This document shows, piece after piece, positions 11,536-29,691 of a stretch of DNA of 30,718 nucleotides. A model generated the notes under the pieces. It was not told where the DNA came from, made no database searches, and was given only the letters and a program-made list of their open reading frames with translations. The translations under genes and the position numbers were made by a program. The DNA comes from a virus. The stretch lies in IMG/VR virus record IMGVR_UViG_3300037485_000659, positions 1 through 30,718 of that record. The stretch is one strand, 5' to 3'. Each line of letters starts with the position of its first letter. Positions within the stretch are counted from its first letter, which is position 1.

Positions 11536-12294
11536 CTGCTACCCTCCCGCCGAATGCCTGATTTAGAAGTTTGGCTATCATCTGTTGATCCTGCCACGTT
11601 TGCGCCCGTTTCGGTTTAGCGGCTTTCTGTGTGGGCATGAAGTCCTGTGGACTCCACGGGTCACGCTTGGTCTTGGGGTCACGGTTGATATTAGCCAACA
11701 CGGCACAGATAAGAGCCGCGTGGCTTGCGTCTCTCTCGTAACTCGCTGTATGCCGTTTGACTAGCATATCAAACTCCTTATACGTCAGCTTCCAAAACTC
11801 GCCATCGGTCAGCCGTAGATCATACCGACCAATAGCCCATAACTCTAGCCACGTTGGAGGTTCTCCGCGTTTCCCGAGTCTGGTTCACCGTCCGCCTGTT
11901 CCGACTTGGGGAGAGCCTCGCGGATCGCCTCGAATAGTTTCGTACCGATCTCTGCCACGTTACCGGCATTGACCAAACGCCCCGCCTGGCGCAGTGTTAG
12001 TGAGCTATCAGGACCACCCAAACACGCCCAAAGCAACGCTCGGAGATCACGTGCATTGATCGCATCCCGTGCGATTAGTTCACCCACAACATTGATTCCT
12101 GCGCTCAAGTTATCACCACCGGCACTCACCGACTGAAGCGATTCTCGGAGAGTCTCGAAGATCGGCGCAATGAACTTCAAAACGCTCTTTCCGGTCTCAT
12201 CCTCAAAGTCGCTCATAGCGGAGAAGTCGAGCCGCAGCTCATAAGACTTGCCGCCGAGTTCAATTTCTACAGGTTTGACTATTGCGCGTGTCAT
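11516..12294 (-). CDS. Tail assembly chaperone, -1 frameshift product (gpGT-like)
   Basis: Predicted fusion of the upstream chaperone ORF with the -1 frame. Ribosomes read 142 codons from 12294, slip at GGGAAAC (11875-11869), and continue R-G-E-P-P-T-W-L-E-L-W with no stop to 11516, giving about 259 residues. The -1 part includes a typical T-domain start (GEFWKLTYKEFDML), followed by VKRHTASYERDASHAALICA and NINRDPKTKRDPW, then a basic tail. An internal ATG at 11767 makes the second half look like a separate 83-residue gene, but its coding sense begins further upstream and it lacks an independent site. In lambda, gpG and gpGT bind tape measure and tube protein during tail assembly. Confidence 0.85.
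11845..12294 (-). CDS. Tail assembly chaperone, unshifted product (gpG-like)
   Basis: A 149-residue helical protein made when ribosomes do not shift. It starts TRAIVKPVEIELGGKSYELR and has LRLDFSAMSDFEDETGKSVL, the beta-hairpin-then-helices pattern seen at the start of many tail chaperones, and ends SGNAENLQRG. The slippery site is at codons 140-142, eight codons before the stop. It lies between the tail tube and tape-measure genes, as expected. The start overlaps the preceding 37-codon gene by ATGA and has no strong site, so it is probably translationally coupled. The unshifted form should be the more abundant product. Confidence 0.85.
   Translation of the reverse strand: MTRAIVKPVEIELGGKSYELRLDFSAMSDFEDETGKSVLKFIAPIFETLRESLQSVSAGGDNLSAGINVVGELIARDAINARDLRALLWACLGGPDSSLTLRQAGRLVNAGNVAEIGTKLFEAIREALPKSEQADGEPDSGNAENLQRG
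11869..11875 (-). other. Programmed -1 ribosomal frameshift site GGGAAAC
   Basis: On the minus strand the heptamer reads G GGA AAC in the frame of the chaperone gene (GGA is codon 141), an ideal X XXY YYZ slippery site. Lambda uses GGGAAAG at the same place in its G-T pair. Frame 0 ends eight codons later, while the -1 frame stays open for 117 codons. A small GGAG-AAC-CTCC hairpin follows within 10 nt. Confidence 0.88.
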
Positions 12295-12404
12295 TTCTTT
12301 TTTGCCGCCGGTTTGGTTGCCGTTTTGGTCACACTCTTTTTCGTGAACGTCTTGCGCTTGTCGCCGAACCGCGCTAACAGTTCCGCTTTGGTTGCTTTAG
12401 CCAT
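12291..12404 (-). CDS. Small Lys/Thr-rich basic protein
   Basis: A 37-residue protein: MAKATKAELLARFGDKRKTF, then a tail of Lys, Thr, Ala and Pro. The start at 12404 has AGGGAGG 5 nt upstream, one of the best sites in the window, and the stop overlaps the chaperone start as ATGA. This placement suggests it is truly translated and may couple translation to the chaperone gene. The tail resembles histone-like or intrinsically disordered basic peptides. No family is recognised. It could be a small virion or assembly protein. Confidence 0.65.
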   Translation of the reverse strand: MAKATKAELLARFGDKRKTFTKKSVTKTATKPAAKKK

Positions 12405-12429
12405 GTTATCCTCCCTATATGATATATGG

Positions 12430-12456
12430 TAGGGAGGGGACAAATTGCCCCCTCCC
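12430..12456 (-). promoter_or_regulatory. Hairpin between tail-tube gene and small basic gene
   Basis: GGGAGGGG (12432-12439) and CCCCTCCC (12449-12456) form an 8-bp GC-rich stem with a 9-nt loop just after the tail-tube stop codon. There is no U-tract on the leftward transcript, so it is not a classic terminator. It may protect the mRNA 3' end of the abundant tube transcript or act as a partial attenuator. Confidence 0.5.
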
Positions 12457-12465
12457 ATTGACTGA

Positions 12466-12903
12466 CTAGCTGCCGCCTGGTGTCCAAGTCGGCGAGCCGG
12501 TAACCTTGAAAGTCGCAGTAAACGGCAATAGGCCGTCCACGGGAGCGTCTCCCGTCTTGAGTTTCGAAACTATCGCATCAAACGCCCAAGATGAGCCGTC
12601 GGGGAATGACATAGCCATTGCCCTAACGCCGCCTGTGGTGTCCTGTGCGAAGTGCGCTATGACAGCATTCTGCCCAGCATCGCCAGCGTATAGCTGCCCC
12701 TCAACGGAGCATTCACCAGCATCCCTGATGCCCTGGATGAATTGCTTATAGCCGTCCGCGTTGTCGTGGTTAGTAGCGTCAAGCACGTTTGCCGTCTGCT
12801 CTAGCCCGCCGATGTTGTTCAGCGATCCGATGGTCTCAGCACCCACATCGGTATACGCCAGTATCGTTCCGTAGCTTTTGGTAGCCGTGATTGTAGTGGC
12901 CAT
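12466..12903 (-). CDS. Major tail tube protein
   Basis: A 145-residue protein with the lambda gpV/TP901-type tube fold pattern: an N-terminal ATKSYGTILAYTDVGAETIG strand region, the conserved-style segment LDATNHDNADGYKQFIQGIRDAGE, and a C-terminal beta part ending DGLLPFTATFKVTGSPTW. In this family the 'D.T.......YK.F..G..D.GE' motif is typical. The protein forms the hexameric rings of the non-contractile tail tube. AGGAGG lies upstream of the ATG. It lies between tail terminator and chaperone genes, and is followed by a GC hairpin. No sheath gene is present, which supports a siphovirus. Confidence 0.9.
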   Translation of the reverse strand: MATTITATKSYGTILAYTDVGAETIGSLNNIGGLEQTANVLDATNHDNADGYKQFIQGIRDAGECSVEGQLYAGDAGQNAVIAHFAQDTTGGVRAMAMSFPDGSSWAFDAIVSKLKTGDAPVDGLLPFTATFKVTGSPTWTPGGS

Positions 12904-12915
12904 AGATTAGCCCTC

Positions 12916-13290
12916 CTAGGTAATGTCAGCCTGGATTGTGACATCCAGAACGGTCTGATGGACACGTGCGCCCGGCTCGTAGATGTCGACCTCATTCTGT
13001 ACAAATGCCGTGGCGTCGTTTAGTTCGCCCATCTCGCCAGTGTAACCGCTCAACGCGGCTTTGACCTCTCCCGCGAGCGTCTTTGCCGCCGCGTAAGTGG
13101 CCGCGAAGCAACTGACCTGCATCAGCCCTGTTTCCATACCGCAGTCTCCGTCGTGTGTAACTAGAGGTCTCCCTGCTATGCGCTGCAAACGCACCGCCGG
13201 AAAAGTTATCCCGTCTGGAAACAGTATCGAATGGACTGGCACGTCCAGTTGTTCGCTCAGATATGTATATAGCCCCTGTTCAATAGTCAC
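12916..13290 (-). CDS. Tail terminator/completion protein (DUF3168-like)
   Basis: A protein of about 124 residues (TIEQGLYTYLSEQLDVPVHSIL..., then GMETGLMQVSCFAATYAAAKTLAGEVKAALSGY) with the alpha/beta pattern of DUF3168 / SPP1 gp17 tail-completion proteins, which cap the tail end that joins the head. I place the start at the GTG at 13290, because GGGGAGG lies 6 nt upstream and the GTG overlaps the previous TAG (TAGTG). An ATG at 13305 in the same frame has no ribosome binding site. Its place between the gp10-like and tube genes is standard for siphoviruses. Confidence 0.8.
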   Translation of the reverse strand: MTIEQGLYTYLSEQLDVPVHSILFPDGITFPAVRLQRIAGRPLVTHDGDCGMETGLMQVSCFAATYAAAKTLAGEVKAALSGYTGEMGELNDATAFVQNEVDIYEPGARVHQTVLDVTIQADIT

Positions 13291-13685
13291 TAGGAGCCTC
13301 CCCATAATGATTCAAGTTTGCGCCGGATGTTATCGGCAAATGTTTTCTCGACAGCTTTCTGTGTTACAGATAGTGCGCCTCGGAGGTATGACATTGATGG
13401 CATGTGCTTAGTCCCATACTCCTGATACCTCGCATACTCAACAGCAGTTCCCACTACTACCGTGTTTTCGCTGCCGTCGTGCTTTACGCCGTCCACCAAC
13501 AACGCCGGAGACTCAACACGGCTGCTGGCAGTGCGCGTGGCGTATGTGATGGAGTTCCTTAGCCTGCCCGTGTCATACGGAGCCATTTCCTGCGCCCGAC
13601 GTGCGATGATCGCACCACTCTCAATAAGTGCCGCGTCAACCGCTTCCTGTAGCGCATTAGCTAGTTGGCGTGCTGAGACTCCCAT
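13290..13685 (-). CDS. HK97 gp10-like head-tail/tail assembly protein
   Basis: A 131-residue protein with the hallmark segments of the HK97 gp10 family: an N-terminal helix, then RRAQEMAPYDTGRLRNSITY, a GTAVEYARYQEYGTKHMP segment and a C-terminal helix with LRGALSVTQKAVEKTFADNI. 'AP.DTG.L..SI' followed by 'YA.Y.E.GT' is diagnostic. These proteins take part in joining tails to heads or in early tail assembly. GTGGAGG lies upstream of the start, which overlaps the preceding gene by 29 bp. Gene order is that of SPP1- and HK97-like phages. Confidence 0.88.
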   Translation of the reverse strand: MGVSARQLANALQEAVDAALIESGAIIARRAQEMAPYDTGRLRNSITYATRTASSRVESPALLVDGVKHDGSENTVVVGTAVEYARYQEYGTKHMPSMSYLRGALSVTQKAVEKTFADNIRRKLESLWGGS

Positions 13686-14064
13686 CGTTCTGCCTCCACA
13701 GTAGGTCTACCTGCAATAGATCGCCCTGCTGGTGTACATCGTTCACGGCTTTCACGTCGTATGTTTTGCCGTCGTATTCCACGCGGTCGCCTGGCTGGAT
13801 GTCAGTTGTCACCTCGACCGGCGGCGTCGCCGTTGTCGTGGTCACTGGGTCGAGGTATAGCCGATGAGTTGCAGCATAGCCGTGATGGAACGCTGCAAAC
13901 TGCTGGTCTCCGCTCATTTGTCGCAAGACCCCCGACCCCTCCCACACCGGCTCAACACTCCACGTTTTCTCAGGCGCACCGAATGCATCGGATGCCTCGG
14001 TGAACCGGTAGACGGCGAAGCCAGATGTTAGCCACTCCGGGAATATGTCGGCGAGTGTGCCCAT
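13657..14064 (-). CDS. Head-tail joining (head closure/stopper) protein
   Basis: A 135-residue beta-rich protein with FRFTEASDAFGAPEKTW-like N-terminus and a typical stopper-family C-terminal part (DIQPGDRVEYDGKTYDVKAVNDVHQQGDLLQVDL). 'GDRV.Y.G..Y.V..V.......L...L' is characteristic of SPP1 gp16 / head-tail joining proteins. It closes the portal channel after packaging and forms part of the connector. The start overlaps the adaptor stop as TAATG with GGTGAGG upstream. It follows the adaptor gene, as expected. Confidence 0.85.
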   Translation of the reverse strand: MGTLADIFPEWLTSGFAVYRFTEASDAFGAPEKTWSVEPVWEGSGVLRQMSGDQQFAAFHHGYAATHRLYLDPVTTTTATPPVEVTTDIQPGDRVEYDGKTYDVKAVNDVHQQGDLLQVDLLWRQNDGSLSTPTS

Positions 14065-14327
14065 TATGTAAACCTCACCTGTTTGAACGGGTTCAGCAGT
14101 CCGAGTAGTGCCGGAGGAAAGTCAGTTGAATATGTGACCTGCATATCACCCAGACGTTTTGACTGCACGTTATCTGCGCCCGCCTGCGCCAGAAACGTCG
14201 TGGCTTTTGCGATGAACAACTCCACCGCCGGAGGCGCAGTGATAGCCGTCCACCCCACGCGCCGGTTGCAGTAGTTGTTCGCGAAATCTAACAGAGCTTC
14301 CGTGATGTCAACTGTATCATCTATCAT
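14064..14327 (-). CDS. Head-tail connector/adaptor protein (gp15-like)
   Basis: An 87-residue mainly helical protein (ITEALLDFANNYCNRRVGWT, PAVELFIAKATTFLA) ending with LGDMQVTYSTDFPPALLGLLNPFKQVRF. The closing 'G...V.Y.....P..L..L..Y' pattern is that of SPP1 gp15 / HK97 gp6-type adaptors, which bind under the portal. GAGGGAG lies 6 nt before the ATG. It is the first tail-side gene after the accessory cassette, whereas in related phages it directly follows the major capsid gene. A candidate extended -10 lies just upstream. Confidence 0.82.
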   Translation of the reverse strand: MIDDTVDITEALLDFANNYCNRRVGWTAITAPPAVELFIAKATTFLAQAGADNVQSKRLGDMQVTYSTDFPPALLGLLNPFKQVRFT

Positions 14328-14344
14328 GTCAATCTCCCTCGCCT

Positions 14345-14353
14345 AGTATACCA
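14345..14353 (-). promoter_or_regulatory. Candidate extended -10 promoter before the connector gene
   Basis: In the 55-nt gap between the radical SAM and adaptor genes, the minus strand reads TGGTATACT (14353-14345), a TGn extended -10. A weak TTGCTA lies 19 bp upstream. It could restart transcription of the tail genes after the inserted cassette. The evidence is motif only. Confidence 0.35.
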
Positions 14354-14382
14354 CGATTAGTCAGGTTGGTAGCAATTGCACG

Positions 14383-15114
14383 TTATAGCCCAACACCATC
14401 AGACGTTATACGCATATCAGCCAGCCACGAGCCTGAGTAATCTATACTCCACTCAATCTCAGACGGCTGTTGTGTGACCGCTAAAGCCTCATCATCGCTC
14501 AACAGTGAATCACGTTTAAACTCATCTGACATATAGCCCAACGAGAACTCGAATGGTGTTCTCGCCTCGTGCCGCGTTATCCCGAAATACCGTTTGCAAT
14601 CTGCCGCCATTGATATAATTTCGCCTGCGTTTTGCCTAAACAGCATTGAGATTATGTGGAGTGCTGGCGCGTTTGATGAACTACGAACAGCAATTACCAA
14701 CCTATCTAAGTTGTCTATGAACGTCTCGTATTTTGCGCCGCGCCTGAAGTACTCATACGTTTCCGGCACGAGGCTCTCAACAGAGATGTTGATATGATTG
14801 ATGTTGGCATTCGCCAGTGCGTCAATGTCATCATCGCTCATCTGCGTCGAAAGGTTGGTCGAGAGAAACGCTTTCGGTCTCAGTTCCGGCGGTATCATTC
14901 GCATTATATCCGCAAACTGCGGATGGATCGTCGGCTCAAACCCACACGAGATGAATAACTCGTTTGCGCCTACTGCCTCGTTTCGCGCAACGTCCAACAC
15001 TCGCGCAAACGTATCAAACGACATTTCTGGAGTCGGTTGGATGTTTGCCCAATCGTTAGAGCAAAATGGACATCGTAGGTTGCAATTACCGGTTATATCG
15101 CACATCATATTCAT
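14383..15114 (-). CDS. Radical SAM enzyme without a visible SPASM domain
   Basis: A 243-residue protein with the [4Fe-4S] motif CNLRCPFC (Cys 11, 15, 18), followed by radical SAM barrel features: GANELFISCGFEPTIHPQF (GGE-like region), AFLSTNLS and INISVESLVPETYEYFRRG. It resembles MoaA/SPASM-type cores used for peptide or sugar modification. The protein ends RITSDGVGL soon after a 'RI.SDG' segment that in SPASM relatives precedes further cysteines, so an auxiliary cluster domain is absent or lost. The ATG at 15114 overlaps the previous stop as ATGA; a GTG at 15132 is possible. It forms a cassette with the methyltransferase and glycosyltransferase genes. The substrate is unknown. Confidence 0.85.
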   Translation of the reverse strand: MNMMCDITGNCNLRCPFCSNDWANIQPTPEMSFDTFARVLDVARNEAVGANELFISCGFEPTIHPQFADIMRMIPPELRPKAFLSTNLSTQMSDDDIDALANANINHINISVESLVPETYEYFRRGAKYETFIDNLDRLVIAVRSSSNAPALHIISMLFRQNAGEIISMAADCKRYFGITRHEARTPFEFSLGYMSDEFKRDSLLSDDEALAVTQQPSEIEWSIDYSGSWLADMRITSDGVGL

Positions 15115-15698
15115 AGACTGACCAATCCACACCCTGGATCGCTGCCGGAGTCGGTATACATAGCCACGTGATGGTTTTGTTTTATCTCATCCCACAGCCT
15201 CGGAACTTCGCACCAGCCTGGCATGTCGCAGTTTACGTCGTGCATTCCGATCATTCCGCCCGCCCGAACCATTGCGCTGTAGTTATCCCAGTCGGGCTTA
15301 CACACATCATACATGTGGCCGCCGTCGATGAATAACCAATCGTATTCAGTAGAGACACTGCGGACAGCATTGATTGTCGCTTCGTCTCGCGAGTCTCCGT
15401 TTATGAGTTTTAGCGTGTGTTTGCGTTCGGTGGCATAACGGTTCCATTCTGATATTGTTTTGCGCGGAGTCACCCAGTCTGGATTCAGTGACAAATTGAC
15501 CGAAACAATCAACGAGCCAGCCGGAGCGTGTTTCATCCATTGGTACAGCGTCCCGCCGAGGTATGAGCCTATTTCCAGTATGCGCGTCGGTTGCAGTCGG
15601 TCGAATTGCTGTATGAGCGACTCTAACGCAAACTGGCTCATTGATGATGGATTCACAGTCACCGAATCATCCATAAACTGTGTTATAGGTTCAGTCAT
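15111..15698 (-). CDS. Class I SAM-dependent methyltransferase (Methyltransf_24-like)
   Basis: A 195-residue Rossmann-fold enzyme. Motif I is RILEIGSYLGGT (about 39-50), the acidic-loop region follows SLIVSVNLS, then INGDSRDEATI and the strand YDWLFIDGGHMYDVCKPDW. GGMIGMHDVNC provides the late motif. 'FIDG.H.Y..v..D' and 'GG.i..HD' are typical of Methyltransf_24 / cephalosporin-hydroxylase-like proteins in sugar and natural-product modification clusters. GGAGGAG lies 7 nt before the ATG at 15698, which overlaps the glycosyltransferase stop (ATGA). It probably methylates a glycan made or transferred by the upstream enzyme; this link is inferred from gene order. It ends in GCGLVSL. Confidence 0.85.
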   Translation of the reverse strand: MTEPITQFMDDSVTVNPSSMSQFALESLIQQFDRLQPTRILEIGSYLGGTLYQWMKHAPAGSLIVSVNLSLNPDWVTPRKTISEWNRYATERKHTLKLINGDSRDEATINAVRSVSTEYDWLFIDGGHMYDVCKPDWDNYSAMVRAGGMIGMHDVNCDMPGWCEVPRLWDEIKQNHHVAMYTDSGSDPGCGLVSL

Positions 15699-18600
15699 AT
15701 CGCCACTCCTCCAAGCATCAGTTTGGCATACTGTGCGCCTAGTTTGTTCCAATCATAGCGGTCAGCGGTCGCCAGCCCTGCGGCTATCAGCCGTTTGTGT
15801 TGCTGTTTGTTTTTCGTGAGCCATTGCACGTGTTCAGCGATTGCCTCAACATCACGGAACGGAGCAATTAAGCAGTTTACATCATATTTCGCATACTGTT
15901 CTTTCCCCGGAAAGTCGCTCAGAACTACGAGCGTTCCGCAGGCCATCGCCTCTATTGGTGTCATTGCGAAGCCGTCGGAGTCTGAGGCATAAACGTATAT
16001 ATCGTGGTCTGCATAGACTGCCGCCACCTCAGCCGTGGTCTGGGGTCTGTAGTGCGTATCAGCCCACTGGCATTCGCGAGCGTATCGGTGGAAGCAATTG
16101 ACCACCGCACCCGGTATCAGTTTCCGAATAGCCGCCGCAATTGCTGGATTGTCCGGCCCTTTGTGACCGTCCGCACCATACATCAGCACCCGTGGCAGTT
16201 TGCCCATTTTACGTGGCATATATGGGTACATCTCGCGGTATAGCCCAACGTCGACTATATGAGACTCGCGCCCCATCGCCGCTAGCCTGTCGTGTAAATG
16301 CTGCCCAATAGTGATGATCTCGAAGTCTTTATCTTGGTAACTGTCAAGTGCTTTCCTCGCCGTCAGCCCGCAAGAAGCCGCCATACAGTCTTCGATCTGC
16401 TGCACAAAATAATACCGTTTCGCCGCGTTGATCGCTTTCGCCTCTTTGAGCGTGTCGCATCTGGTAGCGACAACGATCTCAGCCTCGTGGAGTTCGTGAA
16501 TCGGTCGAATGGGGAATTGTGGGAAGTCTTTGTCTGGATCGGTGTCCATCTTTCGCACAAACACCTCAGCATGCACTCCACAGATGGACAGTTGCCGCGC
16601 CAGTGCCGCCACTACTCTATTCCCGCCACCCGCCGACTGGAAGTCTGGCAGAATGAATGCAATTCGTGTGCGTGATAGATGGTTGCGGTATGTATTCCAC
16701 TCGCGCTCGAATATCTCACAACTGGCCTTGCGCATCGCTAACACCCGCAATCGATCGCCCTTGTTGGCTTTGACAACCGCGTGGCTGGAATGCGTCAGCA
16801 CGGCATCTGGCACATACCAAACCTCTGAGCCTGTTTTAGCCGACAGCCGCATACCGTATTCTAAATCCTCGCACCCAAACAAATAACGCTCATCGAATAG
16901 CCCCATTTCGGCCTCGACCGATACGCGGAGACAGTAGACCGCACCACAAACGGTATGAACCTTTCGGTAGTCGTTAAATTGTGGATCGTTCGTGGTGCAA
17001 TTGCGGCCTAGTGAGCATTGATCTACGCCGTTTGGCTGCATATCAAACCCACATGTTTCAATGTCTCCATTGTCATACAGCAATTTCGGACCACACAAAC
17101 CACACTCCGGCCTCGCCTCCATCCATCGCATCAGATGATTAAGCCATTGCGGATCGTGAGCTGCCACGTCTTGATTATACAGTATGTGGTAGTCGCAGTC
17201 GGTTAGTTTCTCCATCCCGCGGTTGACCGCCTCGGAGAAGCCCACCGGAGAGTCAAACCGAATGACCGCCGTTTCATCACGTAGCATCTTCAGCGTTTGT
17301 GCGTCAGTGCTCGCGTTGTCCACTATCTGTATATGGATAGTTCCCGCGTAGTCAGTCTCGCGCAGTTTGCGGAGACATCTCTCTAGCAGGATCGGAGCGT
17401 TGAACACAGGTATAATTATGCCGACGGCTGGCCAGACCGACGGGTCAGGTAGATTCAACTCAGCTTTCGGAATGCGCCAGCCCATACGAGCTAGAAAAGC
17501 GTCACGGTTATCATTGAGTTTGACTACAGCCTCGCGCCGTGGCGGCCTCTTCTCCGCCCTAACTCTGGCTATCTCTGCAATAGCCGCGAGTCGGCTCTCC
17601 CGCGTGTGTTTATGTCGCACAACTCCACCTATCACCCGCGTTCGCGCGTGGCGTGCGCGCGTCTGCTGCACTTCCTCGGCTATCTCTACGCCCTCCGGCA
17701 GTTGTTCATCACATCTCATAAGCGCGGCTGCCGCCCTGGCAGCACACCCCCCATCTGTGTAGGTATAGCATCGGCCAATAGCTGTCCGCCGAGCCTCTCT
17801 ATATTTTGCATCGTCCTTAATTGCGGTCTGGACAGTCGCTAACAGTTCAGCCGGAGTGTGACAGACAGCCCCTAAGTTAAGCCGCTCGTTATACATCCCG
17901 CCGTATTCAGACGGCTTGTAAGATTTGCTCATCACCGGCACAACTGGTCGGTCAAGCGAAGCAAACTCGAATATAGCCGATGTCGCATCAGCCACCATCA
18001 TATCAGCACGCTCGAATACCTCAGCCAACGAATAGACGGTCTCAATGCCCATCGCCTCGTATATCGGAGCCAGCTCTCTGATGATCGACGGATGCCCGTG
18101 CCCTAGCAGTGTGTAGTGTTGCGATAACTCGCGCACAGCCTCGCGGTACTCGTCAAACGCTGTGAATGTGTTTGGAGACACAAAGCAACGCCAATGCCAC
18201 GCCAGCGCAATCGTAGGGCGTTTGGGGATAGGTCTATGCTTTGCCGTCTGCCACTTGTCGAGCTTTGGACAGCCGATGACCTCAACATGTATTGATGGAT
18301 TCCCCACGCGCTCGAGAGCCGCTATGGTCTCGTTACTGGAAAGAATGAGTTTAGTATTCTGCCGGTTGCGGTTCGTGCCTGGGTAGCCCTCATACGAATG
18401 TTTCGCGTCGAAAACGAATCCCACGCCGTGCATTAGAATTGCGTTTGGTCTGCCTGTGCGGTCTAGCCACGCCGGATCACGGTGACCAGCTACGACCGTT
18501 AGGTGTTTGGCAGTCTTGAGAGCATTGAGCATGTGCGATGATGTTTTGTGGAGTGTTGCCTCAATGCCGTGATGATGAAGATATTCGGCGTTTGCTTCGA

Positions 18601-18724
18601 TAGCGTGGAATTGACCGCGTGATGTTTCGGGGATGGAGTGCCAGACCGGAGCCATGTGGTCGATATAATGGTTCCTGCCTATTTTGGCATTATGCCCCTC
18701 GACCACGACAAAATCAATCATCAT
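15695..18724 (-). CDS. Three-domain glycosyltransferase (GT-B + GT2 + GT4)
   Basis: A 1009-residue multi-domain enzyme. Residues 1-345 resemble a CDP-glycerol glycerophosphotransferase/GT-B fold (NAILMHGVGF, KLILSSNE, VEVIGCPKLDKW, LGHGHPSI, MMVADATSAIFEFASLDRPVV). About 431-655 is a GT2 domain (VGIIIPVFNAP, IQIVDNAST, FSEAVNRGM, YHILYNQDV, FGCEDLEYGMRL). About 685-1009 is a GT4-like GT-B domain (RIAFILPDFQSAGGGNRVV, VLMYGADGHKGP, IYVYASDSDGFAMTPIEAMA). It could assemble a short glycan in one polypeptide. With no host-like glycan operon around, virion proteins (the capsid gene lies next to it) or host surface polymers are the likely acceptors. The start has only a weak GGGGG site; ATG 18721 is an alternative. 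Confidence 0.9.
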   Translation of the reverse strand: MMIDFVVVEGHNAKIGRNHYIDHMAPVWHSIPETSRGQFHAIEANAEYLHHHGIEATLHKTSSHMLNALKTAKHLTVVAGHRDPAWLDRTGRPNAILMHGVGFVFDAKHSYEGYPGTNRNRQNTKLILSSNETIAALERVGNPSIHVEVIGCPKLDKWQTAKHRPIPKRPTIALAWHWRCFVSPNTFTAFDEYREAVRELSQHYTLLGHGHPSIIRELAPIYEAMGIETVYSLAEVFERADMMVADATSAIFEFASLDRPVVPVMSKSYKPSEYGGMYNERLNLGAVCHTPAELLATVQTAIKDDAKYREARRTAIGRCYTYTDGGCAARAAAALMRCDEQLPEGVEIAEEVQQTRARHARTRVIGGVVRHKHTRESRLAAIAEIARVRAEKRPPRREAVVKLNDNRDAFLARMGWRIPKAELNLPDPSVWPAVGIIIPVFNAPILLERCLRKLRETDYAGTIHIQIVDNASTDAQTLKMLRDETAVIRFDSPVGFSEAVNRGMEKLTDCDYHILYNQDVAAHDPQWLNHLMRWMEARPECGLCGPKLLYDNGDIETCGFDMQPNGVDQCSLGRNCTTNDPQFNDYRKVHTVCGAVYCLRVSVEAEMGLFDERYLFGCEDLEYGMRLSAKTGSEVWYVPDAVLTHSSHAVVKANKGDRLRVLAMRKASCEIFEREWNTYRNHLSRTRIAFILPDFQSAGGGNRVVAALARQLSICGVHAEVFVRKMDTDPDKDFPQFPIRPIHELHEAEIVVATRCDTLKEAKAINAAKRYYFVQQIEDCMAASCGLTARKALDSYQDKDFEIITIGQHLHDRLAAMGRESHIVDVGLYREMYPYMPRKMGKLPRVLMYGADGHKGPDNPAIAAAIRKLIPGAVVNCFHRYARECQWADTHYRPQTTAEVAAVYADHDIYVYASDSDGFAMTPIEAMACGTLVVLSDFPGKEQYAKYDVNCLIAPFRDVEAIAEHVQWLTKNKQQHKRLIAAGLATADRYDWNKLGAQYAKLMLGGVAI

Positions 18725-18739
18725 GCCCCCGTATAGTTA

Positions 18740-18773
18740 GCAGCCGGAGAGGAGGTGTGAACTCTCCGGCTGC
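18740..18773 (-). promoter_or_regulatory. 12-bp perfect hairpin after the major capsid gene
   Basis: GCAGCCGGAGAG (18740-18751) and CTCTCCGGCTGC (18762-18773) are perfect reverse complements with a 10-nt loop, 13 nt after the capsid stop codon. The leftward transcript has TAACTAT after it but no U-tract. It may be an attenuator or mRNA 3'-end stabiliser separating abundant capsid mRNA from the glycosyltransferase cassette. Confidence 0.6.
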
Positions 18774-18786
18774 CGTGCGCGGTGAC

Positions 18787-19758
18787 TTAGGAACTAGCCG
18801 CCACTGCGTTTCTGTGAGTCAGAGCGACGATACGAACATTCTTCTGTTCGTATACTCTCGCCCAGTTGGCAGCAAGAGCCAACTCTACGTTAGTTGGTGA
18901 GGAAAGCACACAGGAGCTATCCTGCCACGCCACGCCACGCGGATGCAGAATGAACTGCTTCCTATTGGTGAGCCACGTGTCGCCAGCGAGCGTGTCCCGT
19001 GCGGTCTCGGTGGCGTTGAGCGGATTGCCCTCGCCGTAGCCGACAGCACCAGCCCCGAACAGATACGTAGTGTAAACGCCATTAGTAACAGGGCAGCTAT
19101 CATCCTCGACAATTCGCCGACCGAGGAATGACTTGATAGACGCCACGCCCTGAGAGTCAGGAACGTAGTCAATCAGGTCGAGTTTGGTAAGAAGCGTTAC
19201 GGTCGCACTATGCGCCATAATCGCCGTGAGTGAATCTTTGTTGTCGCCGAGCAACTGCGCAGCGTCGAGAACAGCCTCAGCGTCGATCACTGCGGCAGTG
19301 GTCGCCTCCTCGGAGATGTCCAGCACACCGCCGGACATTGAGCCAGCGTTGAAGATGCCCTCAAGAGTCTTGAGTAAAGCATCCTGCATCCTGCGTGCCC
19401 AGTAGCCGCCGAGCAGTTTGCCGATAGCCGCCATCGGATCGTCACCGGCGAGAATCGCCGCCAGATCGTTTGTGCCGAATGCACGGCCGCGCTGCAGGAT
19501 GATCGCTTTGTCCTGCGCCGTGTCGATCTTACCGACGGTAAGCGAGCCAGCGTCAGAAAGCACTTCATCCGCGCCTGCCAAGTCCTGCCAGAACGGCATG
19601 TTGACAATGCGCCCGCCACTGGAAGCCAGCACGTTGAGAGCCGGATTAGCCTGGATGATGCCAGAGCTAAACAGGTTAGACTGAGCAGCCGTCTGCTCGA
19701 TCACGTAAGGGTTGAATACCTCAGGGACTATAACGTCCGTTATTTTAGTAACAGCCAT
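18787..19758 (-). CDS. Major capsid protein (HK97-fold)
   Basis: A 323-residue capsid protein. The start AVTKITDVIVPEVFNPYVIE, then LASSGGRIVNMPFWQDL and VLSDAGSLTVGKI, and later DDPMAAIGKLLGGYWARRMQDA, match, from memory, a large family of phage coat proteins (SPP1 gp13-like, HK97 fold) common in Firmicutes phages. The second half has LTAIMAHSATVTLLTKLDLIDYVP, the P-domain region, and a DTLAGDTWLTNRKQFILHPRG segment typical of this family. It forms the icosahedral shell. AGGAG lies upstream of the ATG. The scaffold gene directly precedes it. A perfect hairpin follows, then the accessory enzyme cassette. Confidence 0.93.
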   Translation of the reverse strand: MAVTKITDVIVPEVFNPYVIEQTAAQSNLFSSGIIQANPALNVLASSGGRIVNMPFWQDLAGADEVLSDAGSLTVGKIDTAQDKAIILQRGRAFGTNDLAAILAGDDPMAAIGKLLGGYWARRMQDALLKTLEGIFNAGSMSGGVLDISEEATTAAVIDAEAVLDAAQLLGDNKDSLTAIMAHSATVTLLTKLDLIDYVPDSQGVASIKSFLGRRIVEDDSCPVTNGVYTTYLFGAGAVGYGEGNPLNATETARDTLAGDTWLTNRKQFILHPRGVAWQDSSCVLSSPTNVELALAANWARVYEQKNVRIVALTHRNAVAASS

Positions 19759-20514: not shown

Positions 20515-23500
20515 CTATTCGACCACAACTGTTCCGGGAATGTCCTCGACTGTGGCATATCCCGTGATGATCTCAGGTATCGTGACCGCGCCGCGTGTCC
20601 AGCTTATCGAATATGGTATACGCCCAAGCGGCAGGTCGAGAGTCTCCGCGCCGGTCATATCCCACGTAACGATTAGCGTCCCCGGCGTTTCCTCTGTTGC
20701 CGTTGCGGCGAAGTCTACGCCGTCCATATTGATGACCGGTGTGTCAGTCGCCACGTTGAATGTGGAGTTGTCAGTGATAGTAACTATCATCTGGGTCGTT
20801 GCCGCCGTGTAGGTCGCACCACGCAGTATGCTGATGTTTCCAACGGCATTCACCGGTGATATGATCGTGACATCCATATCGCCGAGTTCGGCTTTGATCG
20901 CCGACGCAATAGCCGGTATATCTTCCTCCGTCAGTGCGCCGGTGGCGGCCACCACGGCCTCAGCAATAGCAGTGATAGCCTCATCGCTCATAGAGTCTGC
21001 CACGCTATCCATTTTACCGCCGACAAGTGCCGCCGGTATGCGAGTCTGGATGTTGTCGGTGTCAGCCTGCACTGTGACTATCTTGTTACTAATAGCCGTC
21101 AGTTGGCTGTCGTATTCGTCCGGCTGTGCAGCCGTCTTCGCCGCATCATAAGCAGCCGAAAGCGTAAAGCCTTCTTTGTCGGTGACTCCTGCTATGGTGT
21201 CGGTAGTCACCACATAGTCAGCAGCCGCCAGTGTTCGCGCCGTGAACTCTGTATTGGTTGGCACGTCTGCAACTGCCGTCGTTAGCGCGTCCAGTTCAGC
21301 GTCAACGCTGCCCGCCGCCGGAGTGCCTGCGGTAGGCGCGAGCTTCATCGCGTCGCGTGTCTGTTGCGCCGTCAGTCCACCGCCGCCACCTGCCGACTCC
21401 GCAGCAGTCTGGATAGTTACGAGCGTTTCATCAGTCCACCCTGCGCCCTTGATCTCCGTGAGCGTCGCCTCAAGGGCTGTAGCGTCCAAATGAGCGTCGA
21501 TACTGCCAGCGTTCGGTGTGCCGGATGTCGGCGCGAGCTTCATTGCATCTCGTGTCTGCTGTGCGGTTAATCCGCTTCCGCCGCCTGCCGCCTCAGCAGC
21601 AGACTGAATTGTAACAAGTGTCTCATCTGCCCACCCTGCGCCTTTGATGGCCGTGAGCGTCGCCTCAAGAGCTGTAGCGTCCTTTATAGCTTCTGCGCTA
21701 TCTGTTGTGTTGTCGTATGTCGTGCCTGTGCTGATGTCCGTCGGAGTGAGAGCGTTCGCTTTTGCAGCTAATGCCCTGATCGCACCCAGCACTGTGTTGA
21801 TCCCCGTTCCCGTCCACGCGCCTAACCTGCCGATCAGAGTTTGGCTGGTCGCCTCTAATGCTACCGCGCCCGTGAGATAGCCAGCTTTTGTCGCCGTCCA
21901 GTCGGTAGCTAGGGCAGCCCCGTCAGTGCCACGCATAGCCTCAGTATAGCCCGCAGCAATGATGTAGTAATCGTCGGCCGCGACAGGTGTGAAGCTGAAT
22001 GCCCGATCTACCACAACAGTGTTACTGGATGCCGTGCAGGATGCTATGCGCCTGACCTCATAGTGGTCATCGGTTTTGTCCTCGACCATAATTAGCGCAC
22101 CCATCATCGAGTCATCACCAATGATGTCACCGTCTACTACGATCGTACTTGCATCTGAGGCGGAGACCACATTACCCTGCATAATAAATTGATGTGCAAG
22201 CGTGTAGCCCAGTGTATCTTCGTCGTGTCCTGTGTGGCTGCGGTTCCATACTGCTTGCTGAATCGCGTCAGCGGTCAACCCTGCCTGAGTCTGTGCCACA
22301 GTCCGAATCTCTACAAAGTCGATTCGTAGTCGGTCATTAGTTGTGGTAGATGTAGAAGTGAATCGTATAATCATCGCGCCCGTGGCAGGGTTAATCATAT
22401 TAGTCGCCATCGCGTAAACGCGGTTCTGGTCTTGTGAAGCGTTGCTTGTAGCGTTGCCGTCAAAGTCGGTTGTCGTGTTAGATAGCTGGACAAACGCGGT
22501 AGTAGTGTAATCATACGCCCACACATGCACGTTACGTGCGCTAGAACTGGCGTTAAAGCGTCCATTGACTGTTACACTCGACGGTACGCGCCCCAGAGCA
22601 GATGTGAACCCTAGTTGCACATCTAATCCGAACCCGTTTCCATCAGCACCAGACGCAGGTCCCGTGTTGTAGTAGGTTGTCGTAGTGGTGGTCACACCAT
22701 CGTCAACGAGTGTATCTGAGTAGTCGCCCTCAGTCGATCCGACCGTTTTGGTTGTCTCGGTGTTGCTGCCAGCATAATACCCAATAGGATTGCTCACAGC
22801 AATCGCATCCCGAATCAGTTGTAGCCCATCAGTCGCAGGATCGAAGTCCGACGTGTTGCCGTTAGCCAGCAGACGCGAGAGAATAGTGTTGTCGGCTACC
22901 TCAGTTGTCATATCGGCAGCAGCCGTGGCGGTCTTGGCTAGGTGGTCAAGATTGAGTTCATCGAGAACTTTACGAACTGCCAGTGCAATGATGTTTGTTG
23001 CGTATGCAGTGCTACCAATATCTGCAGCTAATGTGGCGTTATCTATTGCAGCATTAGCAATAGCAGCAGCTGTTATTGCACCAGCAGCAAATGATGTTGA
23101 TGCAATGCCTCCCGACGCAACAGAACCTACAGCACCACTTACGGAACCAACAGAGCCTACTACGTTACCTGCAACGCTTCCTACTGCACCAGTTACAGAA
23201 GCGATAGTAACATCAGATGCTACCTTCGCATCTGTTATCGCGTTATCGTTAATCGCCGTTGCGGTTATTGCGTTAGCAGTTATCGTCTTAACGTTTACGT
23301 CTACGTCATCTGCTACTGCAGCGTTGGTTATCGCATTAGCAGCGAATGATGTGGAGGCGATACCTCCTGATGCAATAGACCCTACTGCACCTGTAACCGA
23401 CGCAATGGTAACATCTGATGCCACTTTCGCGTCAGTTATTGCATCAGCTGCAATTGCCGTAGCAGTGATCGCATTAGCAGCGATCGTAGTTACGTTGACA

Positions 23501-23835
23501 TCTTTGCTACGGTTCATAATGCTGAACGTGGATATAACCGCACCAATCACCGATATACTATCTACCGTGCCTGTCGTGATAACCACACTGTAGTCAAACC
23601 CTACAGCGTAGAATGCAGCAGAACTTAGGTCGATCAACACATTGTTGAGACCTGTTACGCCATCAAAGTTCGCGGCTAATGTTACGCCAGTAGTGACCTC
23701 GCTGTCGGTAGCAGACCCTTTGTAGACTGACACAGCACCACTCGTCAAAGCGGCAGGTGTTCCGTCCGCTTTGTGCGTGTGGAACTTGAAATTGAGCGTC
23801 GCATAATCTTCTGCATAATCGCCTAAATAAGCCAT
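20515..23835 (-). CDS. Large repeat-rich fibre-like virion protein
   Basis: A 1106-residue protein. Residues 1-105 form a beta domain (LGDYAEDYATLNFKFHTH, FDGVTGLNNVLIDLSSAAFY, FSIMNRSK) seen at the start of other phage surface proteins. Residues ~115-290 are low-complexity repeats of 'ANAITATAIA.DAITDAKVASD', 'GAVGS' and 'GGIASTSFAA'. The middle has a jelly-roll-like stretch (DVQLGFTSALGRVPSSVTVN). About 730-860 holds two copies of a 65-residue unit (GLTAQQTRDAMKLAP). The last ~90 residues look Ig-like (TPGTLIVTWDMTGAETLDLP). It lies between the head genes, before the scaffold, not after the tape measure. This suggests a head fibre or decoration protein, though a tail fibre cannot be excluded. 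Confidence 0.7.
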   Translation of the reverse strand: MAYLGDYAEDYATLNFKFHTHKADGTPAALTSGAVSVYKGSATDSEVTTGVTLAANFDGVTGLNNVLIDLSSAAFYAVGFDYSVVITTGTVDSISVIGAVISTFSIMNRSKDVNVTTIAANAITATAIAADAITDAKVASDVTIASVTGAVGSIASGGIASTSFAANAITNAAVADDVDVNVKTITANAITATAINDNAITDAKVASDVTIASVTGAVGSVAGNVVGSVGSVSGAVGSVASGGIASTSFAAGAITAAAIANAAIDNATLAADIGSTAYATNIIALAVRKVLDELNLDHLAKTATAAADMTTEVADNTILSRLLANGNTSDFDPATDGLQLIRDAIAVSNPIGYYAGSNTETTKTVGSTEGDYSDTLVDDGVTTTTTTYYNTGPASGADGNGFGLDVQLGFTSALGRVPSSVTVNGRFNASSSARNVHVWAYDYTTTAFVQLSNTTTDFDGNATSNASQDQNRVYAMATNMINPATGAMIIRFTSTSTTTNDRLRIDFVEIRTVAQTQAGLTADAIQQAVWNRSHTGHDEDTLGYTLAHQFIMQGNVVSASDASTIVVDGDIIGDDSMMGALIMVEDKTDDHYEVRRIASCTASSNTVVVDRAFSFTPVAADDYYIIAAGYTEAMRGTDGAALATDWTATKAGYLTGAVALEATSQTLIGRLGAWTGTGINTVLGAIRALAAKANALTPTDISTGTTYDNTTDSAEAIKDATALEATLTAIKGAGWADETLVTIQSAAEAAGGGSGLTAQQTRDAMKLAPTSGTPNAGSIDAHLDATALEATLTEIKGAGWTDETLVTIQTAAESAGGGGGLTAQQTRDAMKLAPTAGTPAAGSVDAELDALTTAVADVPTNTEFTARTLAAADYVVTTDTIAGVTDKEGFTLSAAYDAAKTAAQPDEYDSQLTAISNKIVTVQADTDNIQTRIPAALVGGKMDSVADSMSDEAITAIAEAVVAATGALTEEDIPAIASAIKAELGDMDVTIISPVNAVGNISILRGATYTAATTQMIVTITDNSTFNVATDTPVINMDGVDFAATATEETPGTLIVTWDMTGAETLDLPLGRIPYSISWTRGAVTIPEIITGYATVEDIPGTVVVE
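21290..21680 (-). repeat. Tandem 195-bp coding duplication in the fibre-like gene
   Basis: Two adjacent copies of a 65-codon unit encode the segment around ETLVTIQ.AAE.AGG and GLTAQQTRDAMKLAP. The marker AGCTTCAT occurs at 21341 and 21536, 195 bp apart. The copies have diverged mostly at third codon positions, so the duplication is old and under protein-level selection. Confidence 0.8.
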
Positions 23836-23836
23836 T

Positions 23837-24889
23837 TTATCCCTCGCTAATCAAAACACTCGCCCCGACTAATCGTCCACCGCCTGAACCTGCTACCAAT
23901 GTCCCTGTTTCCGGCGCACCCGCGCCAGCACCAGCACTATCGCCATTCACACCTAACTTCACGTCCGCTTTCGGAATTGTTTTCGCGTAGTAGTAGTAAT
24001 GCGTCGCGTCGTAACCATATTGCTCGGAATGCCCAATACCTGGAGTCCATCTAATGTTACCAAGCACCGCTGCGCCACCAGCAATAGTATTGATTATGTT
24101 ACCCGTTACCGTTACCACACCAGTTGATGCGTTGTATACGGCTGGCGTTCGCGCTGCATTGCCTGATTGCAAATCACCAGTTATCGTTATCGTGCCAGTA
24201 GAACCATTAGAAAGTCCAGGTTTACCAGCACCACTACCTCCTGTTATATTTGCCGTTATTGTTGTAGTACCTGATGCGGTAGTCTTGGCTAGCCCCTCGC
24301 AGCCAGAGCCACCCACGATTGAACTACCAGCGTTAATTGTGCAATTCGTCCCATTGCCCAACGAAATACCGTTGGCTCCTGGACTGCTTCCACCCGTCAA
24401 AACTCCAGTAATTGATATTGTTGAGCCACCGTTGCTGTATATTCCGTGACGGTTAGCGTCAGAACCACCAGTAGAATTACCAGTCATAGTCAAATGGTGA
24501 GAACTACCTCCCAGTGACAAACCTGTTGCAGCTGCACTTCCGGTCACGTTGCCGATAAGCGTTAGTGTTTTTCCGTCTGTTATTGTCGTAATTGGTACTG
24601 TCGAGCCAGCAGTTATGTTACCTCTGATGGTGCAATCATTTGCACTAACTAGGTTACCGCCAGCAGCTCCACCACCTGTAGCTGCTGTAGTGATTTCCAC
24701 TGATGTTCCTGCACCTACATCAATGTTCACCGTGTTTGGAATAATCACACCTGTTTTACCGTTCAGACATAGCGTATCACCATTAGCCAGGTTCGCCCAT
24801 GTCAGCGTTTTAGCAGCAGCATCAGTTTTCCACTTATTAGCATCATTAATGTTGCCGTCGTTGGATTGACATAGCCAAATGTCTGCCAT
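23837..24889 (-). CDS. Beta-helix-like surface protein, paralogue B
   Basis: A 350-residue protein homologous to the next upstream gene. The N-terminus has DANKWK and LTWANLANGDTLCLNGKTGV, the middle is a series of 'ITGDL/ITGNI/GGS' strands of about 15-25 residues typical of a right-handed parallel beta-helix, and the C-terminus has NIRWTPGIGHSEQYGYDATH, then YYYYAKTIPKADVKLGVNGD and a Gly-rich end. AGGAGG lies 5 nt before the ATG. Beta-helix proteins on phages often bind or cut polysaccharides, but no catalytic motif is visible. It is encoded in the head module with its paralogue, so a decoration or adhesin role is inferred. Confidence 0.7.
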   Translation of the reverse strand: MADIWLCQSNDGNINDANKWKTDAAAKTLTWANLANGDTLCLNGKTGVIIPNTVNIDVGAGTSVEITTAATGGGAAGGNLVSANDCTIRGNITAGSTVPITTITDGKTLTLIGNVTGSAAATGLSLGGSSHHLTMTGNSTGGSDANRHGIYSNGGSTISITGVLTGGSSPGANGISLGNGTNCTINAGSSIVGGSGCEGLAKTTASGTTTITANITGGSGAGKPGLSNGSTGTITITGDLQSGNAARTPAVYNASTGVVTVTGNIINTIAGGAAVLGNIRWTPGIGHSEQYGYDATHYYYYAKTIPKADVKLGVNGDSAGAGAGAPETGTLVAGSGGGRLVGASVLISEG

Positions 24890-24890
24890 G

Positions 24891-26123
24891 CTATCCTCCT
24901 GCGCTCACGAGGACGCTGTTACCTACCAACGACCCACCGCCACCAGCACCTGCTACCAATGTCCCTGTTTCTGGTGCGCCAGCACCGTTACCATCTACAC
25001 CCAATTTAACATCAGCTTTCGGTATCGTCTTTGACGAGTAGTAGTAATGCGTAGCGTCGTAGGGACGCTGTTGCGACTGTGCTGCGGTCGGAGTCCATCG
25101 GATGTTACCTGTAACAGCATTGCCACCAGCAATTGTGTGTATGATGTTGCCAGTTATCGTCACAACGCCAGTAGACGAATTATATATAGCTGGTGTCAGC
25201 GCAGCAGAACCAGAGCTTAGATCACCAGTGACCGTTATCGCAGCAGTAGATGTACTAACGATAGCACCGACCATACCAGCAAAACTACCGCCAGTAATGT
25301 TACCTGTGATAGTCAACGCGCCAGTAGACGCATTATAAATTGCGTAGTTAGATATAGCAGTGCTACCGCCTGTTATCGTGGCAGTTATTGTTCCAGCACC
25401 AGTGCTATCATTACTAATTCCTCGCGCCGTTGCTGCCCCGTCGCCGCCCTGAATGGTACTGCCCGATTCAACAGTAAAAGCACCAGAGCTCGCATTATGG
25501 AAACCGAATGATGTTGCTGCGCCGTTGCCACCCTGGATCGTGCTGCCTGAGCCAAATGTAATTGCGCGTGTGTTGGCGTTGTAGACACCCTTTGATGTTG
25601 CTGCGCCTGACCCGCCTGACACAGTACCGGTGATAACCGTTGACCCGCCCTGTGCTGTAGTGCAGTTGCAGTACACCCCATAGGCTGTGGTCGCACCAAC
25701 CCCACCTGTTACGTTACCCGTCAGCGTCAATGAGTGACCGCTAGAGAGCGCAATACCAGGAATACTTGTAGCACCTCCCGTTACGTTACCAATAACTGTT
25801 AAGCGTTTTGCACTCGTTGCTGTAGTTATGGGAGTTGTGGTTCCTGCTGTTATGTTACCTCGTACCGTGCGGTCAGTCGTAGCAACCAAGGTGCCACCTG
25901 CTGCACCAGTACCTGATAGGATAGTTGAAACGGTTACCGATGTTCCTGCACCAGCATCAATATCCACGTTCAGAGCAATACCTGTTTTGCCGTTCAGGTT
26001 CAGTTCATCACCGTTGGCAAGATTTGCCCACGTTAACGCAAGACCAGTCGATGGTAGATTTTTCCATTTGTTGGCATCATCGATGTTCCCAGCAGTAGAC
26101 TGTGCGAACCACACTGTAGCCAT
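24891..26123 (-). CDS. Beta-helix-like surface protein, paralogue A
   Basis: A 410-residue paralogue of the next gene, with the same N-terminal DANKWKN...LTWANLANGDELNLNGKTGI, a longer run of 'LTGNVTGG', 'SGSTIQGGDGAATA' and 'ITGNITGGS' repeats, and the same C-terminus NIRWTPTAAQSQQRPYDATH, then SKTIPKADVKLGVDG. The repeat 'GSTIQGG(N/D)GAAT' occurs twice in tandem, with a third variant GTVSGGSGAATS just before. The repeat length suggests extra beta-helix turns relative to paralogue B, a usual source of variable reach. No lyase or hydrolase residues are recognised. The start has AGGAT upstream. Gene duplication is the simplest explanation for the pair. Confidence 0.7.
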   Translation of the reverse strand: MATVWFAQSTAGNIDDANKWKNLPSTGLALTWANLANGDELNLNGKTGIALNVDIDAGAGTSVTVSTILSGTGAAGGTLVATTDRTVRGNITAGTTTPITTATSAKRLTVIGNVTGGATSIPGIALSSGHSLTLTGNVTGGVGATTAYGVYCNCTTAQGGSTVITGTVSGGSGAATSKGVYNANTRAITFGSGSTIQGGNGAATSFGFHNASSGAFTVESGSTIQGGDGAATARGISNDSTGAGTITATITGGSTAISNYAIYNASTGALTITGNITGGSFAGMVGAIVSTSTAAITVTGDLSSGSAALTPAIYNSSTGVVTITGNIIHTIAGGNAVTGNIRWTPTAAQSQQRPYDATHYYYSSKTIPKADVKLGVDGNGAGAPETGTLVAGAGGGGSLVGNSVLVSAGG

Positions 26124-29340: not shown

Positions 29341-29691
29341 CTATGCGTCCAGTCCAAGCAATTTGTTGATATGTTTCTGAACGTTCGCCGCCTCGGCGTG
29401 TTGGTTTGACTCAAGGAGTTTGCGGAAGCATAACTCTAGCCGCCTCGCCGATTTGCCTATTTCGACATCACGCTTTATCCCGTTGTAGTATGCCGCAAGC
29501 GCGTCTTTCGCGTCTCTGATATATATGTCAGTCTGGCGTTCACAAACGCCCCATGTTTTTTCGCTATACTGCAATATCTCAGGGCGACCCACACCACGGA
29601 CTATTAACTCCACCACGCGACCGACGCGCGACTTCGTTTCTTCATTCGATGCATGCTTCGTTTTCAGCTTTGATATGATCACTGGTGGCAT
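29341..29691 (-). CDS. Small-terminase-like HTH protein (next to portal)
   Basis: A 116-residue protein. RVGRVVELIVRGVGRPEILQ, then YSEKTWGVCERQTDIYIRDAK forms a clear helix-turn-helix ('R...I..yaa..WgvseRq.drYi..A'), followed by a helical dimerisation part (LELCFRKLLESNQHAEAANV, QKHINKLLGL). This is the usual arrangement of one class of phage small terminases or terminase-associated DNA-binding proteins encoded just upstream of the portal. The start overlaps the Mom-like stop as TAATG. terL is not adjacent but at 3285-4706 with its own small-subunit candidate, so which one recognises the packaging site is open. Confidence 0.7.
   Translation of the reverse strand: MPPVIISKLKTKHASNEETKSRVGRVVELIVRGVGRPEILQYSEKTWGVCERQTDIYIRDAKDALAAYYNGIKRDVEIGKSARRLELCFRKLLESNQHAEAANVQKHINKLLGLDA

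Follow-up and report, generated by a model that had tools for sequence, protein, structure and literature searches.

Why genes for a glycosyltransferase (GT), a methyltransferase (MT) and a radical SAM enzyme (rSAM) should separate the genes for the major capsid protein and the head-tail adaptor of a phage, and on what the encoded enzymes might act, is the question raised by this locus. To our knowledge, glycosylation of phage virions has been established for only a few isolates. The stretch of DNA analysed, referred to here as the window, is the 30,718-base IMG/VR virus record IMGVR_UViG_3300037485_000659.

The cassette within the late operon

The window carries one late operon on the minus strand, which runs from a Mom-like gene through portal, minor head, two beta-helix-like, long fibre-like, scaffold and SPP1-type capsid genes to the three-gene cassette, and continues with the head-tail adaptor, Hc1-like, Neck1-like, tail terminator, major tail and tape measure genes. 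TerL and endolysin-like genes are found farther along, past the tape measure. The features relevant to this work are the following:

15695-18724, minus: the whole GT gene, 1009 aa, with PF04464, PF00535 and PF00534 matches, all above cut-offs
17690..18724, minus: N-terminal module of the GT gene (residues 1-345), TagF-like GT-B, PF04464 at 51 bits, the conserved core of the cassette family
15695..17500, minus: middle and C-terminal modules of the GT gene (residues 409-1009), GT2 and GT4, PF00535 and PF00534
15111-15698, minus: MT gene, class I SAM methyltransferase (Methyltransf_24), 195 aa, PF13578 at 43.8 bits
14383-15114, minus: radical SAM gene, 243 aa from its ATG, PF04055 at 73 bits, CxxxCxxC motif
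18787..19758, minus: neighbouring major capsid protein, SPP1 gp13-like, PF20036 at E 2e-10 and phrog_247 at E 5e-105
14064..14327, minus: head-tail adaptor, the neighbour closing the slot, phrog_1161 at E 3e-13
18740..18773, minus: perfect 12-bp hairpin between the capsid gene and the cassette (stem 18740-18751/18762-18773, 10-nt loop), no U-tract
24891..26123, minus: P0003, repeat-rich head-module protein, probably a beta-helix, 62% identical to P0002, a possible other acceptor
23837..24889, minus: P0002, repeat-rich head-module protein, probably a beta-helix, with an all-beta model, a possible other acceptor
20515..23835, minus: P0001, long fibre-like head-module protein of 1106 aa, so described from its sequence, a possible other acceptor

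The first-pass annotation had described three genes coupled by ATGA overlaps and encoding a GT-B/GT2/GT4 protein, a Methyltransf_24-like enzyme and a radical SAM enzyme, and both the coordinates and the content hold, with all three genes on the minus strand. The GT stop codon (15697-15695) overlaps the MT start at 15698, and the MT stop (15113-15111) overlaps the rSAM ATG at 15114; the rSAM gene is also listed from an upstream GTG, its 243 residues being counted here from that ATG. Within the GT protein, Glyphos_transf (PF04464) spans residues 132-332, GT2 (PF00535) residues 436-541 and GT4 (PF00534) residues 895-983. The phage therefore encodes glycosyltransferase domains scoring above their cut-offs, embedded by ATGA coupling in a virion structural operon, where the genes for the major capsid protein and the adaptor flank them.

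The capsid protein of the window is 47-54% identical to those of TVCOM_ph1, phiFL3A and SPP1, and the related capsid loci, 51 in number, provide a measure of how unusual the slot is. In them, the next open reading frame begins within 270 bp of the capsid gene and encodes 62-211 aa in 49 cases, a long repetitive protein taking its place in the other two (L020 and L021). Occupation of this slot by a cassette is thus not the rule among the capsid relatives. When the whole records of 48 phages with related capsids were scanned, GT2 (PF00535) was found in none and radical SAM (PF04055) in one, far from the capsid gene. Judging from these counts, the cassette is an insertion peculiar to this phage inside its capsid clade. 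The slot proteins of L020 (8986-10311) and L021 (9141-12134) are fibre-like, and the position after an SPP1-type capsid gene may take virion-surface accessories generally.

The signals that had been pointed out around the cassette proved less informative. The hairpin that precedes it is indeed perfect, but 10 of the 51 relatives have a stem of at least 9 bp behind the capsid gene, so that it must be regarded as ordinary, and a role as a special regulator was rejected. As for the weak extended -10 after the cassette, promoter-like matches in the region (3 observed) are no more frequent than in shuffled sequences (5.5), and the element is therefore unsupported beyond its letters. Base composition was equally uninformative regarding a recent acquisition (50-55% GC in the cassette versus 48-59% elsewhere).

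The leading module resembles polyol-phosphate transferases

The three modules announced for the GT protein are all present, but the first of them is not an ordinary sugar GT-B domain. Its PF04464 score (51 bits) lies well above the curated cut-off of 22.1, and a family alignment of 25-26 sequences revealed invariant positions at D22-H23, H99-G100, H177, H209-x-H211-P212, D246, S249 and E253, that is, the motifs DH, HG, HxHP and D..S...E. We take HG, HP and D..S..E to be the catalytic histidine and acidic-serine donor motifs of TagF-type enzymes. When a 25-row profile of the family was compared with the PDB, only four sequences were retrieved at E values up to 1, all of them polyol-phosphate polymerases: Cps3D (the best, E 2e-4), TarL and two TagF entries, the similarity being remote. 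An AlphaFold2 model of the module, for which the alignment was built without the phage-collection row, reached a pLDDT of 90.9 and displayed two alpha/beta halves, as expected for GT-B. Considering the Pfam and profile matches, the N-terminal domain is nearest to the TagF/TarL polyol-phosphate transferases. It shares with TagF, TarL and Cps3D the above-cut-off PF04464 match and the conserved HG, HxHP and D..S...E motifs, and differs from them in being about 340 aa long, soluble-looking, phage-encoded and capsid-adjacent, and similar only remotely.

Given the TagF-type fold, a polyol-phosphate donor is plausible for this module, though the donor may instead be a sugar. A possible further resemblance to the TagF/TarL/Cps3D systems is provided by genes for TagD/RfaE-domain-II-like cytidylyltransferases, which were found in capsid-adjacent GT cassettes of four relatives: beside GT-B in three (L104:7317-7745, L113:7355-7834 and L118:2202-2693) and at the contig end, which cuts the gene, in L098. 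Their best NCBIfam scores fall below the equivalog cut-off, and no such gene is present in the window. Together, the TagF/TarL similarity and the TagD-like genes of these four relatives give a hint of a polyol-phosphate-containing glycan.

A transferase family placed behind the capsid gene

Almost no match to the full-length GT protein was obtained in 50,697 phage records. Residues 1-340 did match gp32 of Virus Rctr41k (KX853513), which lies inside the head-gene module of that phage and was the only family member in the collection. This homologue (34% identity) is a single-domain protein annotated as hypothetical and, in contrast to the window gene, has no adjoining GT2, GT4 or rSAM. Single-sequence scans of viral contigs with the GT or the rSAM protein gave no match, and alignments were required: a two-row GT-B profile retrieved L095 (48% identity) and three further contigs, and a six-row profile retrieved 29 IMG/VR contigs. 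The set of 30 related records used here includes Rctr41k and contains three near-duplicate pairs (L106/L107, L108/L109 and L114/L117).

Cellular and plasmid sequences yielded little. A family member used as the query had no GT-B match among 72,556 plasmids, and only 3 of 198 Bacteroidota genomes gave matches, which were weak and partial; matches of the full GT protein to plasmids were confined to its generic GT2 part, and a scan of genome contigs returned only ordinary chromosomal GT2 in a Prevotellaceae MAG. A distribution in which all homologues sit in host exopolysaccharide operons, which had been named as the outcome that would speak against a virion role, is thus not what emerged from these plasmids and Bacteroidota genomes.

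Of the 30 records, 14 (13 non-redundant) have a recognisable PF05065 capsid gene, and every one of them carries GT-B on the strand of that gene, at a distance of 129-4884 bp downstream from the capsid domain. The same placement is seen behind an SU10-type capsid gene in L095 and behind the SPP1-type capsid gene of the window, the recurrent order being terminase, portal, capsid, GT-B cassette and connectors. In L112, L114, L117, L123 and Rctr41k, a fused protein with a head-protease domain, annotated as capsid protein and protease in Rctr41k, is encoded just upstream of GT-B. There are exceptions: GT-B follows a minor-tail-like gene in L106/L107 and lies away from any recognised capsid gene in L115 and L119, for which reason the acceptor may vary among relatives. 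In L106, a 2652-aa open frame (10794-18749) comes close after the cassette of GT-B and two MT genes beside the minor-tail-like gene.

Recurrent partners and module shuffling

The MT family (PF13578) is present in 11 of the 30 related records and lies near GT-B in 10 of them (9 non-redundant). An alignment of eight members has no invariant residues other than D125, H128, D154 and glycine positions, and the similarity of the window MT to RMNT_CmcI, a sugar O-methyltransferase, is weak and below the cut-off. A second partner consists of glycosyltransferases resembling gp109 of phage Che8, of which 12 genes were found at 11 loci, all at most 4.2 kb from GT-B, and none in capsid-matched control loci. 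The window GT and MT themselves gave no significant BLAST match to the Che8 proteins gp108-110. The proposed link of the cassette to virions is strengthened by these data, as both GT-B and MT families recur beside capsid genes of different families and the cassettes of relatives include gp109 homologues. A search for the same trio in other phages, which the first-pass annotation had advised, was successful for the GT-B domain and the MT family, whereas the radical SAM gene was found in none of the 30 related records. A protein family of 220-270 aa (c4) also recurs in GT-B cassettes (L104, L108, L113, L116, L118 and L120); the members tested gave no match in Pfam (L113, L104) or NCBIfam (L113).

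The closest relative is L095 (IMGVR_UViG_3300032516_004914). Behind its SU10-type capsid gene lies a 731-aa gene that shares about 54-55% identity with the window GT over residues 408-1005, which comprise GT2 and GT4. This is followed by genes for an epimerase/dehydratase, a sugar-1-phosphate nucleotidyltransferase, a 226-aa protein without family match, a Methyltransf_24 enzyme, a GT2 and a separate GT-B (the 48% identical homologue mentioned above), then by a 773-aa S/T/N/G-rich protein and by connector-sized genes. L095 therefore shares with the window the GT modules, the MT family and the slot behind the capsid gene, and differs in its capsid type, in having the modules on two genes, in the extra epimerase, nucleotidyltransferase and two more GT genes, and in lacking a radical SAM gene. 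The window GT gene is thus a fusion of modules that L095 has on two genes. GT-B is fused to different partners elsewhere, such as Nucleotid_trans in L099, a pattern of module shuffling around a fixed GT-B core.

Probable decoration of the virion and its possible acceptors

The reading we prefer, with a probability of about 0.7, is that the cassette decorates the virion: GT and MT would build a small O-methylated glycan on a particle protein, most likely the capsid protein, in the cytoplasm of the infected cell. That it represents a variant of the virion-decoration cassettes of the Corndog and Che8 kind appears well supported by the capsid-adjacent placement of GT-B, the L095 cassette, the MT genes near GT-B and the Che8 gp109 homologues. 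In the cluster O mycobacteriophage Corndog, genes for an O-methyltransferase, two glycosyltransferases and a putative GlcNAc-transferase lie between the portal and protease genes, and few capsid peptides were detectable (PMC4351075). Modification of its capsid was proposed in that work and, in the passage of PMC12363180 that cites Freeman 2023, is given as later reported. The Corndog set (gp35-gp38) and the window thus both combine an O-methyltransferase or MT with several GTs in a virion structural operon near capsid genes. They differ in the slot, which in the window lies between capsid and adaptor, and, by the published description of Corndog, in the TagF-like fused transferase and the radical SAM gene, neither of which is described there. 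For Che8, the passages of PMC11256854 and PMC12363180 that cite Freeman 2023 describe a capsid carrying glycans. Its gp108-gp110 are likewise a phage-encoded GT set linked to capsid glycans, with gp109 homologues at 11 loci that hold the GT-B family of the window, but they are located at the far end of the Che8 genome, and the window has no homologue of gp109 or gp110.

The sequence of events could be as follows. Briefly, transcription of the late genes would include the cassette, which follows the capsid gene; sugars would be attached to a virion protein in the cytoplasm, and extended, by the GT2 and/or GT4 modules; a nucleotide-activated donor would supply the polyol-phosphate or sugar that the TagF-like module adds; the methyltransferase would cap a hydroxyl; and the radical SAM enzyme, if active, would tailor one residue. 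The sequences themselves show the gene content, the repeated placement beside capsid genes, the repeated pairing of GT-B with MT and the company of gp109-like transferases, whereas the acceptor, the donors, the order of steps, the rSAM role and any benefit, such as particle shielding or altered adsorption, are inferred. Adjacency need not mean joint action, and the placement could reflect late expression only.

We regard the major capsid protein as the likeliest acceptor, since a neighbouring capsid gene is what these otherwise dissimilar phages share; next in line are the beta-helix and fibre proteins. Were P0001-P0003 the acceptors instead, the cassette would be the same, and we consider this unlikely. 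A parallel would be the beta-helix autotransporter adhesins, to which dedicated transferases add sugars in the cytoplasm. After its minor head gene and before its scaffold gene, the window encodes two S-, T-, N- and G-rich paralogues that resemble beta-helices, together with the long fibre-like protein; the S/T/N/G-rich protein of L095 directly follows the GT cassette. Such a protein is missing from the neighbourhood of most related cassettes, though, and no homologue of P0001-P0003 was found in the related loci. The tandem paralogues P0002 and P0003 contain TGNITGG-type repeats and abound in G, S, T and N; neither P0001 nor P0002 has a Pfam or PHROG match, and the all-beta model of P0002 has block pLDDT values of 60-87 over residues 81-270 and mostly below 50 elsewhere.

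Remodelling of the host surface, the alternative raised by the first-pass annotation, would have the enzymes block superinfection by altering, in infected or lysogenic cells, the O-antigen, the capsule or teichoic acid. The placement of the genes in a late structural operon beside the capsid gene, and their recurrence behind different capsids, is something that surface conversion does not require. The three genes encode neither a flippase nor a gtr-type membrane-anchored lipid-carrier transferase and do not constitute an O-antigen conversion module of the GtrA flippase, GtrB and membrane GtrC kind, the window GT2 having only weak GtrB-like similarity (E 7e-5). This reading, to which we give still less credence than to the previous one, draws on the relatedness of all the domains to cellular enzymes that make polysaccharides, with matches to Cps3D/TagF, rhamnosyltransferase and EPS models, and on the common interpretation of phage GTs as host-surface modifiers, as for the pelagimyophages (PMC7029224).

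The Mom-like DNA modification protein (phrog_1384), encoded at 29691-30632 on the minus strand near the record end and upstream of the portal gene, suggests that the phage DNA is modified. Its presence brings to mind a cassette that adds sugars to DNA bases together with the Mom-like gene, and the best PHROG of the window MT is named 'DNA methyltransferase', but at an E value of only 3e-5. Among the cassette proteins there is no relative of a known DNA glucosyltransferase, the cassette and the Mom-like gene are far apart and the GT-B relatives sit with capsid genes; DNA glycosylation was accordingly judged very improbable.

A bolder version of virion decoration, possible but doubtful, is that phages from several capsid lineages cover the capsid in an O-methylated glycan that resembles teichoic acid and contains polyol-phosphate, using a TagF-like transferase inherited beside the capsid gene; here the transferase is fused to two GTs, and rSAM would alter the glycan further. 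Should the TagF-like assignment prove correct, phage particles may bear a charged coat of a kind so far undescribed, which would matter for adsorption, particle stability and recognition. More generally, a GT-B family that tracks the capsid gene across capsid types could serve as a sequence marker for glycosylated or phosphopolyol-coated virions in uncultured phages. What is new here is the capsid-tracking TagF-like transferase family with its recurrent partners, the three-module fusion and the attached radical SAM gene.

The radical SAM gene

The suggestion of a radically modified glycan did not gain from this analysis, as it rests on one short rSAM gene that all 30 related records lack. That the gene is a decaying or unrelated passenger, only GT and MT being functional, is a serious contender at somewhat under even odds. 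Its cluster motif, CNLRCPFC (CxxxCxxC), is intact and places the protein in the radical SAM superfamily, as does the PF04055 match (73 bits against a cut-off of 29.5), which covers positions 3-144 of 166; the gene also keeps its ATGA overlap with MT. On the other hand, it is the last of the cassette and encodes only 243 aa, ending at ITSDGVGL, with no in-frame C-terminal cysteines. The protein therefore lacks the SPASM/twitch cysteine domain that its nearest NCBIfam families usually have, which sets it apart from the radical SAM/SPASM maturases. No relatives were found in phages, and plasmids gave one weak match. The best families are MoaA-, PqqE- and W-maturase-like; QueE is not among the families listed, and a role in deazaguanine synthesis was set aside. 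In pelagimyophages, radical SAM genes occur near glycosyltransferases in hypervariable regions, and a host-surface role has been proposed for them (PMC7029224). The window protein may be a natural short enzyme, a truncated form or the product of an assembly error. Across its stop codon (14350-14400 of the window, minus strand), an alternative frame reads AITCNCYQPD, which resembles the cysteine-rich start of SPASM-type C-termini and possibly reflects truncation, decay or chance.
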